Positions 1,773-31,830 of a stretch of DNA of 64,000 nt are shown piece after piece; within the stretch, counting starts at the first letter, position 1, and every line of letters starts with the position of its first letter. The translations under genes were made by a program, and so were the position numbers. The notes beneath the pieces are model-generated. The model made no database searches. It worked only from the letters and a program-made list of their open reading frames with translations, and was not told where the DNA came from. Origin of the DNA: Clostridiaceae bacterium M8S5 (GTDB lineage: Bacteria > Bacillota > Clostridia > Tissierellales > MCWD3); contig CP118523.1 of NCBI GenBank assembly GCA_029227815.1, positions 2,418,001 to 2,482,000 on the forward strand. Reading direction: 5' to 3'.

Positions 1773-4415
1773 CTATTTTACACTATTTCTAACTAGATTT
1801 TCAACTAATCCTAATGCATCTTTTACTTTTGATGGATCTTTTCCTCCTGCAGTAGCCATATCTGGTCTACCGCCACCACCTCCACCAGTAGCTTTTGCAA
1901 CCTCTCTTATTATATTACCTGCATGTATACCTTTTTTTGTAAGAGGTTTAGTAGCAGATGCTACAAAGTTTACTTTATCATTTTTCACTGTACCCAATAC
2001 TACTAAAACATCTGAGTTCATTTTATTCTTTATTTCATCACATAGATTTCTCATATCGTTTACTTCTAATCCATCAACTTGGCTTACAACTAAACTAAAA
2101 TCATCTACTGTAATAACATTTTTTAGCAGATCATCTACTTTAGAAACAGCCATCTTTGCCATTAATGATTCTATCTTTTTACTTAAATTTTTATTTTCTT
2201 CTAGTGTACTCTTAATTTTATCTATCACACTATTAGTATTACATTTGAGCATACTAGCTATATCTTTAATATGATTATAAGTATCATTAATATTTTTAAA
2301 CGCCGCTTCTCCAGTTATAGCTTCTATTCTTCTAACTCCTGAAGCTATACCTCCTTCACTTACTATCTTGAATATTTGAACTTTGCTTGTATTGTCTAAA
2401 TGAGTTCCTCCACAAAGTTCTATGCTATAATCGCCCATTTTAACTATTCTAACTTTATCACCATATTTTTCATCAAATAGGGCTATTGCTCCCATTTTTC
2501 TTGCATCTTCAATGCTTCCTGTTAGTACATTTATATCTAAACCTTCTAATATTTTATCATTCACTTTCTGCTCAATGTCTGCTAATTCTTCTTTAGTCAC
2601 TGCCTGAAAATGAGTGAAGTCAAATCTCAACTTTTCATCGTCTACTAGCGAACCTGCTTGATTTACATGTTCACCAAGTACATCTTTTAATGCTCTTTGC
2701 AATAAATGTGTAGCAGTATGGTTTCTAGCAGAATTCATTCTCTTTTTTCTATCTACTTCAACAGTTATATCGTTATTTACATTTATAGTTCCTTCTTCTA
2801 CCTTAACTGAATGAAGAATTTTATTTCCATCTATTTTCTTAATACTCTTAAGCTTAGCTCTAAAGTCATCAGAATATAAACTACCTGTATCAGACATTTG
2901 TCCTCCACCTTCCGGGTACAATGCTGTCTTATCAAGTATTATAATACCCTCTTCTCCTTTTGTTAAACTATCAACACCTTCATTATCTTTGAGTATATAT
3001 ATAACCTTAGCTGTATTCTTATATTTATCATAACCAACAAATTCGCTTACTATATCATCTGATATATTAGCTTCTGTTTTTACTGACCAACTCTCAAAGT
3101 CTCCATCTGATCTAGCGTTTCTAGCTCTAACTCTTTGTTTTTCCATTTCACTGTTGAAGCCTTCTTGATCAACTGTGTATCCTTCTTCTTCTAATATCTC
3201 TATTGTTAAATCAAGTGGAAAACCATAAGTATCATAAAGTTTGAATGCTTTAGCACCTGTTAATACTTTCTGTCCATTACTAGACATCTCCTTTAAAAAC
3301 TCTTTAAGTATATTTATTCCTTGGTCTATAGTTTCCTGAAATTTTTGTTCTTCAACTTGTATAACTTTTTTAATTTGGGCCTTTTTATCAATTAGGTTGT
3401 AGTAGTATTCTCCCCAATTATCTATTATTAAATTAGTCATATCACTCAAAAATTCACCTTGTAAACCTAAGAGCTTTCCATGTCTAGCCGCTCTTCTTAT
3501 AAGTCTTCTTAATACATACCCTCTTCCTTCGTTGCTAGGAATAACTCCATCTGATACTAAGAAGGTCATTGCTCTTAGATGATCAGTTATAACTCTCATT
3601 GATACATCTTGTTTGTCGTCTTCTCCGTATTTTTTGCCACTGATTTGTTCAATTTTATTTATTATTGAACTTATAGGCTTGATCTCAAATATGTTTTTTG
3701 CATCATTGATAGTTAATACTAGCCTTTCTAATCCCATACCAGTATCTATATTAGGATTTGCTAAAGGATTATAATTACCTTCTTCATCTTTGTCATATTG
3801 AGTAAAAACTAAGTTCCAAACCTCTACAAATCTATCACACTCGCATCCTGGTTTACAGTTTGCATCTCCACATCCGTATCGCTCACCTCTATCAATGTAT
3901 ATCTCTGAACATGGACCACAAGGACCAAGTCCATGCTCCCAGAAGTTATCTTCTTTGCCAAGTCTAACTATTCTATCAGGTGATATACCTACTGAATTTT
4001 TCCATATTTCAGCAGCTTCATCATCATCTAGATACACACTAACCCACAGTATCTCCTCTGGTACTCCTATAACCTTAGTCATAAACTCCCATGCCCAAGG
4101 GATAATTTCCTTTTTAAAATAATCTCCAAAAGAAAAGTTCCCTAACATCTCAAAAAAAGTACCATGTCTATCAGTTTTACCTACATTCTCTATATCACCT
4201 GTTCTAATACATTTTTGACATGTTGCCATTTTTGTACTTGGTGGCTTTACTGTCCCTAGGAAATATGCCTTTAACGGTGCCATACCTGAATTGATTAATA
4301 ACAAACTATTGTCATTTTTAGGCACTAGAGATGAACTCTCTGAAATATAATGTCCTTTTTCTTTAAAAAAATCAAGAAATACTTTTCTAGCCTCATTTAA
4401 ATCAAATTTCTTCAT
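1773..4415 (-). CDS. alaS: alanyl-tRNA synthetase
   Basis: 880 aa, normal for bacterial AlaRS. It charges tRNA-Ala in the cytoplasm. The start was set at MKKFDLNEARK, the family's N-terminus, preceded by AGGGAG; a reading frame 22 codons longer exists but runs into the leader terminator region. Visible domains: the class II catalytic core (FLDFFKEKGH, NSGMAPLK, about 1-240), the tRNA-recognition region, and an editing domain with the zinc ligands HTATH and CGGTH (about residues 590-700). The C-terminal C-Ala domain ends in a Gly-rich GGGGGGRPDMATAGG. A cluster CGDANCKPGCEC near residue 180 adds Cys residues typical of many clostridial AlaRS. It is preceded by its own promoter and a T-box leader. 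Confidence 0.98.
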   Translation of the reverse strand: MKKFDLNEARKVFLDFFKEKGHYISESSSLVPKNDNSLLLINSGMAPLKAYFLGTVKPPSTKMATCQKCIRTGDIENVGKTDRHGTFFEMLGNFSFGDYFKKEIIPWAWEFMTKVIGVPEEILWVSVYLDDDEAAEIWKNSVGISPDRIVRLGKEDNFWEHGLGPCGPCSEIYIDRGERYGCGDANCKPGCECDRFVEVWNLVFTQYDKDEEGNYNPLANPNIDTGMGLERLVLTINDAKNIFEIKPISSIINKIEQISGKKYGEDDKQDVSMRVITDHLRAMTFLVSDGVIPSNEGRGYVLRRLIRRAARHGKLLGLQGEFLSDMTNLIIDNWGEYYYNLIDKKAQIKKVIQVEEQKFQETIDQGINILKEFLKEMSSNGQKVLTGAKAFKLYDTYGFPLDLTIEILEEEGYTVDQEGFNSEMEKQRVRARNARSDGDFESWSVKTEANISDDIVSEFVGYDKYKNTAKVIYILKDNEGVDSLTKGEEGIIILDKTALYPEGGGQMSDTGSLYSDDFRAKLKSIKKIDGNKILHSVKVEEGTINVNNDITVEVDRKKRMNSARNHTATHLLQRALKDVLGEHVNQAGSLVDDEKLRFDFTHFQAVTKEELADIEQKVNDKILEGLDINVLTGSIEDARKMGAIALFDEKYGDKVRIVKMGDYSIELCGGTHLDNTSKVQIFKIVSEGGIASGVRRIEAITGEAAFKNINDTYNHIKDIASMLKCNTNSVIDKIKSTLEENKNLSKKIESLMAKMAVSKVDDLLKNVITVDDFSLVVSQVDGLEVNDMRNLCDEIKNKMNSDVLVVLGTVKNDKVNFVASATKPLTKKGIHAGNIIREVAKATGGGGGGRPDMATAGGKDPSKVKDALGLVENLVRNSVK

Positions 4416-4470
4416 ATTATCGCGCTCCCTTATATATAATATCTTCAAAATTATGTCATAAATAAAAAAA

Positions 4471-4706
4471 CTCCTTCCCAAAAAGGGACGGAGATTAACC
4501 GCGGTACCACCCTAGTTACTAATAATAGCCACTCTAGAATTATAACGGAATCACCGATGACCTCTACTATTAGTTCAAAGCCATAGCTCAAAGGCTGCTT
4601 CAATATTTCACTTTAAACATCTTTCACCATATGATGTTCTCTCTATAAAAGCAAATAATATTTACTACTCCTTATCACAGCTGTTAACATCTCATTCATT
4701 TAGTAT
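4471..4706 (-). promoter_or_regulatory. T-box riboswitch controlling alaS
   Basis: On the minus strand the T-box core AGGGTGGTACCGCGG lies at 4499-4513 and can pair with the free NCCA end of uncharged tRNA. It is followed at once by a terminator (4471-4493: CTCCGTCCC, T-rich loop, GGGAAGGAG, then a T run), so the antiterminator/terminator switch is visible. Upstream is a hairpin AACATC/GATGTT and a GCA triplet (alanine codon) at 4596-4598 that may be the specifier; the specifier assignment is a guess because I did not fold stem I. Placement directly before alaS fits tRNA-Ala sensing. Confidence 0.9.
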
Positions 4707-4736
4707 ATTATAATTAATATCACCTCTGTTTGTCAA
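4707..4736 (-). promoter_or_regulatory. sigma-A promoter for the alaS leader
   Basis: TTGACA (4731-4736) and TATAAT (4707-4712), both perfect, with an 18-bp spacer on the minus strand, just before the T-box leader. Confidence 0.8.
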
Positions 4737-4751
4737 TACATGAATTTACTA

Positions 4752-5921
4752 TTATTTCATTTCATCAAGCTTCTCTATAACATGATTCATAAGTATTTTT
4801 ATAAACACCACACTTGGTACACTTAGTAACATCCCCATTACTCCAAATATACCTCCTCCTATTAACAATACCACCATAACTATTACAGGGTGCAATCCAA
4901 CACTTTCTCCAACAATCCTAGGCGATAATATATCTCCTTCGAATTGTTGTACTGCAAAAAAAAGTATTATTACCCAAATAGCTTTTGTTGTGCTATCCAG
5001 TAGTGCAAAGAATAATGCTGGTATTATACCTATTATTGGCCCAAAGTATGGAATTATACTAGCTATCCCTGCAACTATACCTATGATTAACCAAAACTTT
5101 ACTTTTATAAAAAACAGACCTACAGCTGACGCTATCCCTATAAAGGTTGCTAATATCAGTTGTCCTCTAACAAATCTACCTAGTATAACGTTCATTTTTC
5201 TAGATATTTTGAGTAAATCATCTCTGTATCTTTTAGGACATGTTAGAATTATACTCTTTTTAAAAAGCTCTTTGTCTTTAAGAAAATAAAATGTAATCAC
5301 TGGTATCAGAACTAAAACTAATATTTTGGAAAATGTTGACGCTATCTTTTCTGTTATATTATTTATGCCACTAGTGATAAGTTTCTCTACCATAGCGATA
5401 ATATTGTCTATTATACTTTTAAAATTGCCTAGCCCTTTAGGCAATTTATCTATATTTGTATATAACGAATCAATTTTATTATTAATTTGGACTATATAAT
5501 CTGGAAAATCATCAATTAAATTCGATATTTCTTCTAACATACTTGGAACTATTAATATATATACTACTATTGCAAATGTAATCATAACTACGTATATTAA
5601 AACTATAGCTAATGATCTTTTAATCCCTTTCATTTCTAAAAAATTAGCTAATGGGTTTAATATATAAGCTATAGTAATTGAAAAAATTATCGCAAAAATT
5701 ACATCTTTCACTATAGGTACTGATATATATATTTTTATTATTACTAATATAAATACAGAAAAAATAGATATCTTAATAAACTGTTTTTTTGAAATTCTTA
5801 ATGCTTTATCTGCTTCTAAATATCTATTACCTATTCTAATCAAGTAGTATATTAGTACAAATAAAAGCACTGTTATTAATACACTTCTTGTATTTTTTGC
5901 ATAATTTATAAAATACTGCAT
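4752..5921 (-). CDS. AI-2E (PerM/YtvI) family membrane transporter
   Basis: 389 aa integral membrane protein with about eight hydrophobic segments. Residues 1-75 contain three segments. A soluble, helical insert (about 120-200) carries DDFPDYIVQINNKIDS. The C-terminal half has the family signatures PYFGPIIGIIPA and VGESVGLHPVIVMVVLLIGGGIFGVMGMLLSVP. Members export small molecules or exchange Na+/H+ in some species; the name AI-2E comes from E. coli TqsA. The substrate here cannot be predicted. It is transcribed with the same polarity as alaS but has a 300-nt gap after the YtxH-like gene and the alaS leader promoter follows it, so it may be monocistronic. Confidence 0.85.
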   Translation of the reverse strand: MQYFINYAKNTRSVLITVLLFVLIYYLIRIGNRYLEADKALRISKKQFIKISIFSVFILVIIKIYISVPIVKDVIFAIIFSITIAYILNPLANFLEMKGIKRSLAIVLIYVVMITFAIVVYILIVPSMLEEISNLIDDFPDYIVQINNKIDSLYTNIDKLPKGLGNFKSIIDNIIAMVEKLITSGINNITEKIASTFSKILVLVLIPVITFYFLKDKELFKKSIILTCPKRYRDDLLKISRKMNVILGRFVRGQLILATFIGIASAVGLFFIKVKFWLIIGIVAGIASIIPYFGPIIGIIPALFFALLDSTTKAIWVIILFFAVQQFEGDILSPRIVGESVGLHPVIVMVVLLIGGGIFGVMGMLLSVPSVVFIKILMNHVIEKLDEMK

Positions 5922-6759: not shown

Positions 6760-6838
6760 ATTTATCCCTCTCTTTTATTATATATTCTATTATATTATTT
6801 CTTTTTTTAGTTAATACTATTTATTAAAATATATAAAA

Positions 6839-6860
6839 AATGGCCCTAAAATAGGCCATT
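6839..6860 (-). terminator. intrinsic terminator of the short peptide gene at 6871
   Basis: TGGCC and GGCCA arms around an 8-nt loop, followed on the minus strand by six T residues, starting 11 nt past the peptide stop. Confidence 0.85.
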
Positions 6861-6870
6861 CTTGTAATTT

Positions 6871-6990
6871 TTACCTCATTGTTTCCTCTGCCATCCAATA
6901 ATAAGTTTTAATAGATAACATTGGACAATGACAAACTTTTTTTATACTACAGCTATCTACTTTTCTAACTTTTTTGAATAGTTTTTTCAT
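6871..6990 (-). CDS. short Cys-containing basic peptide (possible RiPP precursor relative)
   Basis: 39 aa, start MKKLFKKVRKV, with cysteines at residues 14, 20 and 22 (CHC) and a tail ending AEETMR. A strong GAGGAGGGG precedes the ATG by three to four bases. It has a private promoter and terminator, so this is a real transcription unit. The N-terminus MKKL-x-KK-V resembles the two peptides at 30.0 and 30.5 kb, which carry C-N-C-I-C; only the first eight residues and the C-x-C element are shared. No maturation enzyme lies nearby. I do not know its function; a modified secreted peptide or a small regulatory protein are both possible. Confidence 0.65.
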   Translation of the reverse strand: MKKLFKKVRKVDSCSIKKVCHCPMLSIKTYYWMAEETMR

Positions 6991-29842: not shown

Positions 29843-29974
29843 ACCTCTAGGTGTAAAATATCAATATAGCAAATAAGTTCAACTGCTTCTATAGGTTTGT
29901 TTTGTTATGCTATTTGGGTATAACGATTTTTTTGTTTTCATCAATAAAGTTGAACTTTTCTATTAAATAAAAAA

Positions 29975-30019
29975 AGAGCATTGCACTAACAAATTAACTT
30001 TAGCTAGTGCAACAGCTCT
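29975..30019 (-). terminator. terminator of the Cys-rich peptide gene at 30023
   Basis: On the minus strand AGAGC and TTGCACTA segments pair with TAGTGCAA and GCTCT (internal loop), then seven T residues, 4 nt past the stop. Confidence 0.85.
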
Positions 30020-30022
30020 GCT

Positions 30023-30151
30023 TTATCTAACATATATCCCAATTGCTCTGTCGAATGAAACAGATAATTCTGGCGTTTCACATATACAATTACAATTAGA
30101 TTTATGACTAAACAAAGTTTCTAAATTAACTTTTTTAGTTAGTTTTTTCAT
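30023..30151 (-). CDS. Cys-rich short peptide, CLI_3235-like RiPP/bacteriocin precursor (copy 1)
   Basis: 42 aa. Leader-like start MKKLTKKVNLETLF, then CNCIC at residues 20-24, then a tail ETPELSVSFDRAIGIYVR. A perfect AAAGGAGGT lies 7 bases before the ATG, and a strong terminator follows at once. The peptide at 30545 shares MKKL-x-KK-x-N-x-E and places C-N-C-I-C at the same residues 20-24. The pattern recalls the clostridial CLI_3235 family (putative bacteriocin precursors, Cys-rich core after a Lys-rich leader); this is from memory and needs an HMM test. No radical SAM, lanthionine synthetase or transporter gene is within the window. Confidence 0.72.
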   Translation of the reverse strand: MKKLTKKVNLETLFSHKSNCNCICETPELSVSFDRAIGIYVR

Positions 30152-30544
30152 CTTGCTACCTCCTTTTTTTTGGTTATTGTATATAATTCTATTTTATTTT
30201 ATATATTCCTTCTAATTATGAAATAATTTGTTATTTTTTTTGTTTTATACTACTCTGTACTCTCTTCTTTTTCTCCTAGTTACCTTTTTTTGGCACTATG
30301 TAATATAGTCAAAAGATTTTATTTTTCTCAAGTTTTAGTTATTCCTAAACCTAAAGTGTTACATTTCATCAGGTTGACTATAAAAGTTGCCTTAAACCGA
30401 TGGATTTAACTCCATTAAAAACTTTAATACAAGATATTTAATCCTAGATAAGCTGCAAAATACTATCTAGTATTTTCTCTAATATTAAATTATTATGTTA
30501 TAAAATCATAAAAAAGGGGCTTAACCCCTTTTTAATTTCTTTAA
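30152..30544. other. intergenic region between the two Cys-rich peptide genes
   Basis: 393 bp without a gene. It should hold the promoter of the 30023 peptide gene (TTGAGA, 18 bp, TATATT on the minus strand at about 30300-30330 is a candidate) and an inverted repeat CTAGATA/TATCTAG at 30444-30470. The stretches directly upstream of both peptide genes share AATA(T/A)AAAATAAA and AAAATAGAAT-TATA-like runs, consistent with a duplicated unit. Confidence 0.45.
30512..30533 (-). terminator. terminator of the Cys-rich peptide gene at 30545
   Basis: Perfect AAAAGGGG / CCCCTTTT stem with a 5-6-nt loop and a T run on the minus strand, 12 nt past the stop. Confidence 0.9.
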
Positions 30545-30670
30545 TTAATATCTTTGTGTATACATTCTGTCACGTGAATCATGTAATCCGCCCATCAAGC
30601 AAATGCAGTTACACATCATTTTAGGACTGCTTATTGCTTCAAAGTTAGCTTTCTTAGCAAGTTTTTTCAT
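30545..30670 (-). CDS. Cys-rich short peptide, CLI_3235-like RiPP/bacteriocin precursor (copy 2)
   Basis: 41 aa. Start MKKLAKKANFEAISS, then CNCIC at residues 20-24, then LMGGLHDSRDRMYTQRY. AAAGGAGGA lies 5 bases before the ATG. The leader is near-identical in plan to copy 1 while the part after the Cys block is unrelated, which is how leader and core behave in RiPP precursors. It is divergently placed from the secreted papain-like hydrolase gene (285 bp between the two starts). No maturase is nearby, so if modified it must rely on enzymes coded elsewhere. A stand-alone metal-binding or signalling peptide is the alternative. Confidence 0.72.
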   Translation of the reverse strand: MKKLAKKANFEAISSPKMMCNCICLMGGLHDSRDRMYTQRY

Positions 30671-30866
30671 ATCGTTCCTCCTTTTCGTTTTTGTTTTGTA
30701 GTATATGTATAATATTCTATTTTATTATAAAAATTCCTTTATTTTATATTATTTTAAAAATTTTAGTCATGATTATAAAGGTTTTCTGAAATCTCAAACT
30801 TATATTTACTATTATACTTTATATATCTAATTCAAATTCCAATGTTTGGTAAAATTATTATTTGTA

Positions 30867-30954: not shown

Positions 30955-31830
30955 ATGAAAAACAGTTTTAAGATTTTCTTATCATTACTTCTTTGTTTCG
31001 TAGTTTTTGGTACAAGCTCAATAACACATGCAAGTGATACATCATCTACAGCACCTAAAGTAATAACGGACAATGAGTACGCACAATTACAATCATCTTA
31101 TAACAAACTTATTGATCATGCTAATGCAAACGATATTCCTCTTGGTTTAACTTTTGATATATTTACCAAAGAATATTTGGCTACTGGGTATGATAGTGTA
31201 AATGAATACACTAATGTATATTATAATATGTTAAAGGAAGTACCTAAAAATACAGAAGTTCATACCGATTCTGTTATTTTAACTTCTAAAGGTAACCCTT
31301 TTTCATGGCATTATAATACAGGAACATCATTGCCTAGAAAAGCTAACTATAGTAAATATAATTTACTAAATGTTTGTCAGCCGGGCGATGTTATATATGA
31401 AGCAAATGGAGGTTTTGGAATAACTGGACATATTGCAATAGTAGAAGGAAAGTTTTATGACGCAACCCAAAATCAGTACTATATCAGAGTAATAGAAGCA
31501 AATCAACACGGAGTATGTAGAGGTGTACTAGATGATGATAGAGTTGATACTCAAAGAGACTACATCTATAGAGTTACTTCTGCAACAGCTGAAAATAAAA
31601 ACAATGCAGTTGAATTTTGTAAAAGTCAATTTGGTAAACCATACATTCTAGACTTTGCTAAACATACTAGCGCGGATACAAAGAGTTGGTATTGTTCTGA
31701 ATTAGTGTGGGCTGCTTACATGAGAGAAGGTATTAATATTGAAACACAATATTGGTTAAATGAACCAGGAGTATCTCCAAGGGATATATCTAGAAGTGAT
31801 AAAGTAACACTAATAAATATAAATAAATGA
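30955..31830 (+). CDS. secreted permuted papain-like (NlpC/P60-YiiX type) hydrolase, copy A
   Basis: 291 aa with a signal peptide (residues 1-26, MKNSFKIFLSLLLCFVVFG, cut near THA-SD). The C-terminal 150 residues have the permuted order of YiiX/YycO-like enzymes: CQPGDVIYEA (141-150), GITGHIAIVEGKFYD with His159, RVIEANQHGVCRG with Glu181, and late SWYCSELVWAAY with Cys247. That gives a Cys-His-acid triad in circularly permuted order. Family members cut peptidoglycan peptides or lipid/acyl amide bonds; the substrate is unknown. ATG at 30955 after GAGAGGTG. A close paralogue lies at 49103. Confidence 0.83.
   Translation: MKNSFKIFLSLLLCFVVFGTSSITHASDTSSTAPKVITDNEYAQLQSSYNKLIDHANANDIPLGLTFDIFTKEYLATGYDSVNEYTNVYYNMLKEVPKNTEVHTDSVILTSKGNPFSWHYNTGTSLPRKANYSKYNLLNVCQPGDVIYEANGGFGITGHIAIVEGKFYDATQNQYYIRVIEANQHGVCRGVLDDDRVDTQRDYIYRVTSATAENKNNAVEFCKSQFGKPYILDFAKHTSADTKSWYCSELVWAAYMREGINIETQYWLNEPGVSPRDISRSDKVTLININK

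Follow-up and report, generated by a model that had tools for sequence, protein, structure and literature searches.

In marine picocyanobacteria, the precursors of the prochlorosins and synechococsins are scattered over the genome, 29 of them in MIT9313 and 79 in MIT9509, and are served by one promiscuous LanM maturase, ProcM or SyncM (PMC10783134). A second described system is SacP23 of Paenibacillus polymyxa #23, whose cluster holds an ECF sigma gene, a precursor with a 19-aa leader and a gene set like that around the clostridial maturase R1 discussed below; SacP23 has been made in B. subtilis and is active on Gram-positives (PMC10731318). CLI_3235 precursors described elsewhere have the form MKKLGKK...TIEAY...CxCxCxC and come in one to three copies adjoining their maturase. 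CteB (5WGG, 5WHY), the thioether-forming maturase of the SCIFF ranthipeptides, combines an N-terminal, leader-binding RRE with a SPASM domain. SCIFF systems have one conserved precursor in cis per genome. In the literature that we searched, whose coverage leaves out most subscription papers, we found no scattered library of CcpM precursors, no description of a scattered library for radical-SAM RiPPs and nothing on Clo7bot.

Here, we analysed a window of 64,000 nucleotides from the chromosome of Clostridiaceae bacterium M8S5 and consider it likely that its small cysteine-rich peptides are RiPP precursors belonging to a scattered library of more than 50 paralogues, served in trans by one or more CcpM-type radical-SAM/SPASM maturases. 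Two precursor-like genes lie on the minus strand: gene 1 (30023-30151; 42 aa, MKKLTKKVNLETLFSHKSNCNCICETPELSVSFDRAIGIYVR) with the layout MKKLTKKVNLETLFSHKSN-CNCIC-ETPELSVSFDRAIGIYVR, and gene 2 (30545-30670; 41 aa, MKKLAKKANFEAISSPKMMCNCICLMGGLHDSRDRMYTQRY) with the layout MKKLAKKANFEAISSPKMM-CNCIC-LMGGLHDSRDRMYTQRY. As originally described, both open reading frames place CNCIC at residues 20-24 (C20-x-C22-x-C24) and continue into unlike tails, and each has a strong ribosome binding site and a terminator of its own. The Shine-Dalgarno sequence AAGGAGG (30159-30165 and 30677-30683, minus strand) stands 8-14 nt 5′ of the ATG, and a hairpin with a T-run follows the stop codon after 4 nt in gene 1 (29968-30019, minus strand; T7, -21.9 kcal/mol for the folded 60 nt) and after 11 nt in gene 2 (30509-30534, minus strand; folded stretch -14.1 kcal/mol, found also by the consensus scan). 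The pair had been described as two duplicated genes; the pair is real, but the count was too low, since both genes are part of a family more than 50 strong and a third, divergent member lies in the same window (6871-6990, minus strand; 39 aa, MKKLFKKVRKVDSCSIKKVCHCPMLSIKTYYWMAEETMR). This gene came from a scan for small open reading frames with a ribosome binding site; it has a GGAGG and is followed by a terminator (6828-6863, minus strand; hairpin plus T6). Against the family profile described below, in which all three genes are themselves included, gene 1 scores E=8.2e-10, gene 2 E=8.0e-8 and the third member a weaker E=0.0044.

The window peptides resemble the CLI_3235/CcpM systems in a Lys-rich leader of the MKKLxKK type, about 19 residues long, and in the Cys-rich core behind it, which begins with CxC from residue 20. 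The suggested membership of TIGR04065 was not borne out: with the cut-off at 26 bits, the peptides of genes 1 and 2 score 11.1 and 9.2, so they are relatives rather than members of the CLI_3235 model, and neither gene adjoins a CcpM maturase, the closest lying hundreds of kb away. They have no Pfam match at E<=10, and TIGR04065, below cut-off, is their only NCBIfam match, which means that they carry no Nif11-type leader. So weak a database match, together with the lack of a known modified product and the ability of CxCxC to bind metal, could be read as a sign of small metal-binding or regulatory peptides that are not RiPPs. We regard this as very improbable because the Lys-rich leader and the exact cysteine positions recur beside CcpM genes in both genomes examined closely, and the promoter shared by many family genes precedes radical-SAM peptide clusters elsewhere.

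The absence of a maturase from the window was confirmed, in that no radical-SAM gene of the TIGR04068 superfamily was found there at E<=0.01; a single window reading frame of at least 150 codons contains CxxxCxxC, in a form that is not radical-SAM-like. Divergent from the peptide genes lies a secreted permuted papain-like amidase of the C92 (YiiX/YaeF) type (30955-31830, plus strand). This hydrolase had been put forward as a partner and was rejected, as no relative of it recurs beside other family members. Among 192 open reading frames near the orphan genes, no exporter and no radical-SAM gene recurs; most of the common neighbour families are of generic kinds (ABC ATPases, two-component systems, helicases), the exception being one duplicated pair of secreted proteins.

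A DNA search of the locus against its own genome returned short matches at the starts of other genes, which read MKKLTKKISYVDTFMPKDFCPCDC..., MKKLTKKVSPRQNTLIYSYNCVCTLC... and MKKLTKKNNIIVLNLQRTTFSSC.... The cysteine pattern ATGAARARNNTN-N{33,60}-TGYNNNTGYNNNTGY, that is MK-[KRNS]-hydrophobic-gap-CxCxC, matched 32 times in the 4.68-Mb genome and not once with the reversed control. A family profile built from 53 peptides of two genomes gave 63 matches, 47 of them with E<=1.1e-4, many being its own training sequences. After each match had been read, 56 intact members remained, at 30 separate places of the chromosome, which bears out the expectation of further paralogues keeping the MKKLxKK leader and CxCxC. 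Only seven of the 56 adjoin a CcpM maturase; for the other 49, which we call orphans, the median distance to the nearest CcpM gene is 389 kb. Column entropies show M1, K2, L4 and K6 to be nearly fixed and CxC to be fixed, the first CxC falling at residue 20 in half of the members (28/56), whereas the positions behind it are close to random. Absence of leader-conserved relatives, or tails kept without the cysteines, had been named as evidence against RiPP precursors, and the outcome was the opposite, leader and cysteines being what is kept. The only congener examined has more than 20 members; the genus and family surveys cover two genomes. In these two species, peptide arrays (L219:3579-8235 and L079:4322-10271) are preceded by the same two genes, one conserved and one thioredoxin-reductase-like; the arrays have kept leaders and unrelated cores, as in positional orthologues with diverged tails.

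Could the scattered copies be decaying relics that have lost their link to a maturase? A few copies are indeed interrupted by frameshifts or stops or no longer have their ATG (996436, 1117793, 2084349, 4049626). Against these stand the 56 intact genes, which have ribosome binding sites and a narrow length range of about 39-57 codons, the terminators behind all three window genes and a promoter motif retained in both species. Moreover, the codons for Leu4 and the cysteines differ synonymously between members, so it is the protein that selection keeps. A relic family is therefore hard to credit.

Which enzyme would serve the orphans? The idea of a radical-SAM maturase elsewhere in the genome was upheld by three CcpM enzymes (TIGR04068) at 615, 558 and 544 bits, above the cut-off of 500. 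All three have the CxxxCxxC and SPASM cysteine motifs, and C100, C104, C107, C414, C417, C423 and C426 are among the invariant cysteines of 13 aligned CcpM proteins. CcpM R1 (about C1:730820-732205) lies downstream of the gene for PTS enzyme I, in a cluster that also encodes a subtilase, a TIGR04066 protein, an acyl-carrier-related protein of TIGR04069 and four small precursors, which is the gene set of the CLI_3235/CcpM systems; no exporter was found in the cluster region as read. The R1-adjacent precursors (MKKLKKSLKGEYTLFVATVCPCGC...) have C20, C22 and C24 as in the window peptides. Such like leaders and cysteine spacing beside CcpM genes favour the original reading of the window peptides as precursors of CLI_3235-type kinship matured in trans. 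Beside R2 lie three CxCxC precursors (MKKLKRGNKRTNLTLVANYCPCSC...) and one bona fide TIGR04065 precursor (L027:3778-3951; 34 bits, above the cut-off of 26). One CcpM-adjacent precursor weakly matches the lachnocin family (NF038169/NF038170; 18.3 bits, below the cut-off of 40); unlike in lachnocin systems, the maturase fits TIGR04068 far better.

The congener has an R1 orthologue, 78% identical and likewise located after PTS enzyme I, with seven precursors upstream whose leaders, for example MKKLQKKVNLKTL and MKKLTKKVNAKTL, agree with the leader of gene 1, MKKLTKKVNLETL, in 11 of 13 residues. R1-cis leaders are the nearest relatives of 47 of the 49 orphan leaders, a count that is supportive only, since R1-cis groups make up 11 of the 17 reference leaders. 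In its predicted structure, R1 has an N-terminal, putatively RRE-like domain of three strands and three helices. CteB (5WHY/5WGG) is the best match of this model among solved structures, over 480 columns that include the N-terminal region, and the closest solved enzyme, at about 22% identity.

R1 is thus the most likely maturase of the library, judging from leader likeness and promoter sharing in a genome that also holds two further CcpM and other SPASM enzymes, and it probably modifies the whole set of different peptides. That the orphans are RiPP precursors of R2, of R3 or of the SPASM enzyme L307:7197-8489, or that different orphans use different maturases, appears unlikely to us. The number of CcpM and further SPASM enzymes and the three CxCxC precursors beside R2 speak for such an assignment, as does the fact that the window genes and most orphans are without the promoter of the R1 cluster. 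Yet in the congener it is the R1-like cluster that contains the orphan-type leaders, the sole precursor in the R2-like cluster being of the classic CLI_3235 kind, and different cis precursors of their own accompany both the L307 enzyme and the RumMC-like enzymes.

Several further radical-SAM genes of this genome stand with peptides of other kinds. Around the SPASM radical-SAM gene L307:7197-8489 lie at least six copies of a second peptide family, MSLSKFVxYK...C (L307:4465-10526, about G000:C1:3282464-3288525), and similar enzymes occur in the congener (L080:15180-16436 and L081:3184-4473). A third cluster (L308:4720-9827, about G000:C1:4660719-4665826) combines the precursor-like MNTLSFGIIKANNPVGALGNNCNGCNGCLSEPTLR with two radical-SAM genes and an ABC exporter. 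RumC-like precursors (SCGKCGWTWHVTRAMVNA) adjoin two RumMC-like maturases of 428 and 446 bits (cut-off 720) in what are probably ruminococcin-C-like systems (L029:5689-6113 and L030:6186-6353); these enzymes were rejected as partners of the orphans on account of their own SCGKCGWTW precursors in cis. Four radical-SAM/SPASM-type genes stand in a row with the Cys-rich peptide MKAIKPLNDNFISPIGGLCPLDCGSDDYCGKCEGICKPWCR at L032:3495-9109 (about G000:C1:3686495-3692109).

Upstream of family genes we found a bipartite, ECF-sigma-like motif, GGAACA-N17-ATC(T/A)-A; GGAAC is the sequence that ECF sigma factors typically have as their -35 element. Scored over 57 genes, its matrix is bimodal, with 19 genes at >=19.8 and the remainder at <=6.6. 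Exact GGAACA-N17-ATC sites number 31 in the genome, against 5 with the control, and about 20 of them precede RiPP-type genes, including the scattered family, the CcpM R1 cluster, the MSLSKFVxYK...C family, in which two sites precede members, and the L308 cluster with its two radical-SAM genes and exporter. Applied to the congener after its derivation in the source species, the motif placed 13 of 24 sites upstream of family genes (the reversed pattern gave 8 sites) and by itself predicted five further family genes that the cysteine pattern had missed. This promoter is absent upstream of window genes 1 and 2, as of most orphans. Instead, seven family genes, the two window genes among them, have in common a matrix AAGG-N16-TAGAAT, which we call class C (putative blocks at 30178-30215 for gene 1 and 30706-30743 for gene 2, minus strand) and treat as tentative because it was seeded partly with the window genes. 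Two observations were made alongside. Close to one family member, an ECF-sigma-like gene stands ahead of a possible anti-sigma gene (L233:1873-3409), a candidate regulator picked by eye. At L309:4406-8537 lie three paralogues that encode secreted proteins of about 310-330 aa (MKKSIFTLMLIFTIVFSMTLTTATSPMS...), the one at 4406-5389 directly behind a GGAACA-N17-ATC site.

The expansion appears to be narrowly distributed. Of 100 genomes from the order, nine encode CcpM at E<=1e-120. The cysteine pattern is multi-copy in the two congeners alone (32 and 19 matches), the rest having 0-5 matches and the controls 0-1. In a survey of 391 Clostridia genomes, in which the profile scored up to 18 candidates per genome and all counts are therefore lower bounds, three genomes beyond the congeners had at least one match each, and nothing like this expansion turned up beyond the genus. 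A stricter cysteine pattern was run over 84,980 species, excluding the source genome and those near it; of the 91 stretches that matched, 26 are small open reading frames, for the most part classic CLI_3235 peptides present in one to three copies. The present family differs from these in having more than 50 copies, mostly far from a maturase, and a shorter CxCxC block.

Taken together, these data can be accommodated in the following model. Each precursor would be expressed from its own small transcription unit, and its leader, basic and some 19 residues long (MKKLxKKxxxxT...), would dock on the RRE-like domain at the N terminus of CcpM. The radical-SAM/SPASM core would then cross-link the CxCxC cysteines to residues of the variable tail, most likely through thioether bonds if the CteB-like fold of the model and the annotation of CcpM systems are a guide. 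The subtilase of the CcpM cluster might cleave off the leader, and the product may leave through a transporter acting in trans. An ECF-type sigma factor could switch on the library as a regulon, as one ECF-type promoter is common to many copies, the CcpM cluster and further clusters of radical-SAM peptides. By analogy, the products would most likely be secreted antagonistic peptides, because SacP23, with its R1-like gene set and 19-aa leader, inhibits Gram-positives; they may also serve in signalling.

How does this library compare with the prochlorosins? The resemblance is in its organisation, with a conserved leader, a hypervariable core and tens of precursors scattered over the genome. The two systems share no ancestry, and the clostridial family is not a member of the prochlorosins, as neither the class of enzyme nor the leader is the same: prochlorosins have Nif11-type leaders and lanthionine chemistry by LanM, the clostridial family a short MKKLxKK leader and radical-SAM/SPASM enzymes. 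We give about even chances to a reading in which the family is the radical-SAM counterpart of the prochlorosins, one CcpM of relaxed specificity serving more than 50 scattered, fast-diversifying peptides within an ECF-controlled RiPP regulon that joins the library to at least two other radical-SAM peptide systems in one clostridial genus. Scattered libraries with a promiscuous LanM are known from marine cyanobacteria. If the radical-SAM/SPASM case in Clostridia is true, genome mining based on clusters would miss most products of the CcpM enzyme class, since 49 of the 56 precursors lie outside any CcpM cluster, and the promoter motif would offer a cluster-independent route to precursors, as with the five extra genes of the congener. 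CcpM itself would become a candidate promiscuous thioether-forming catalyst, and it would become testable why one bacterium maintains so large a set of jointly controlled variants.
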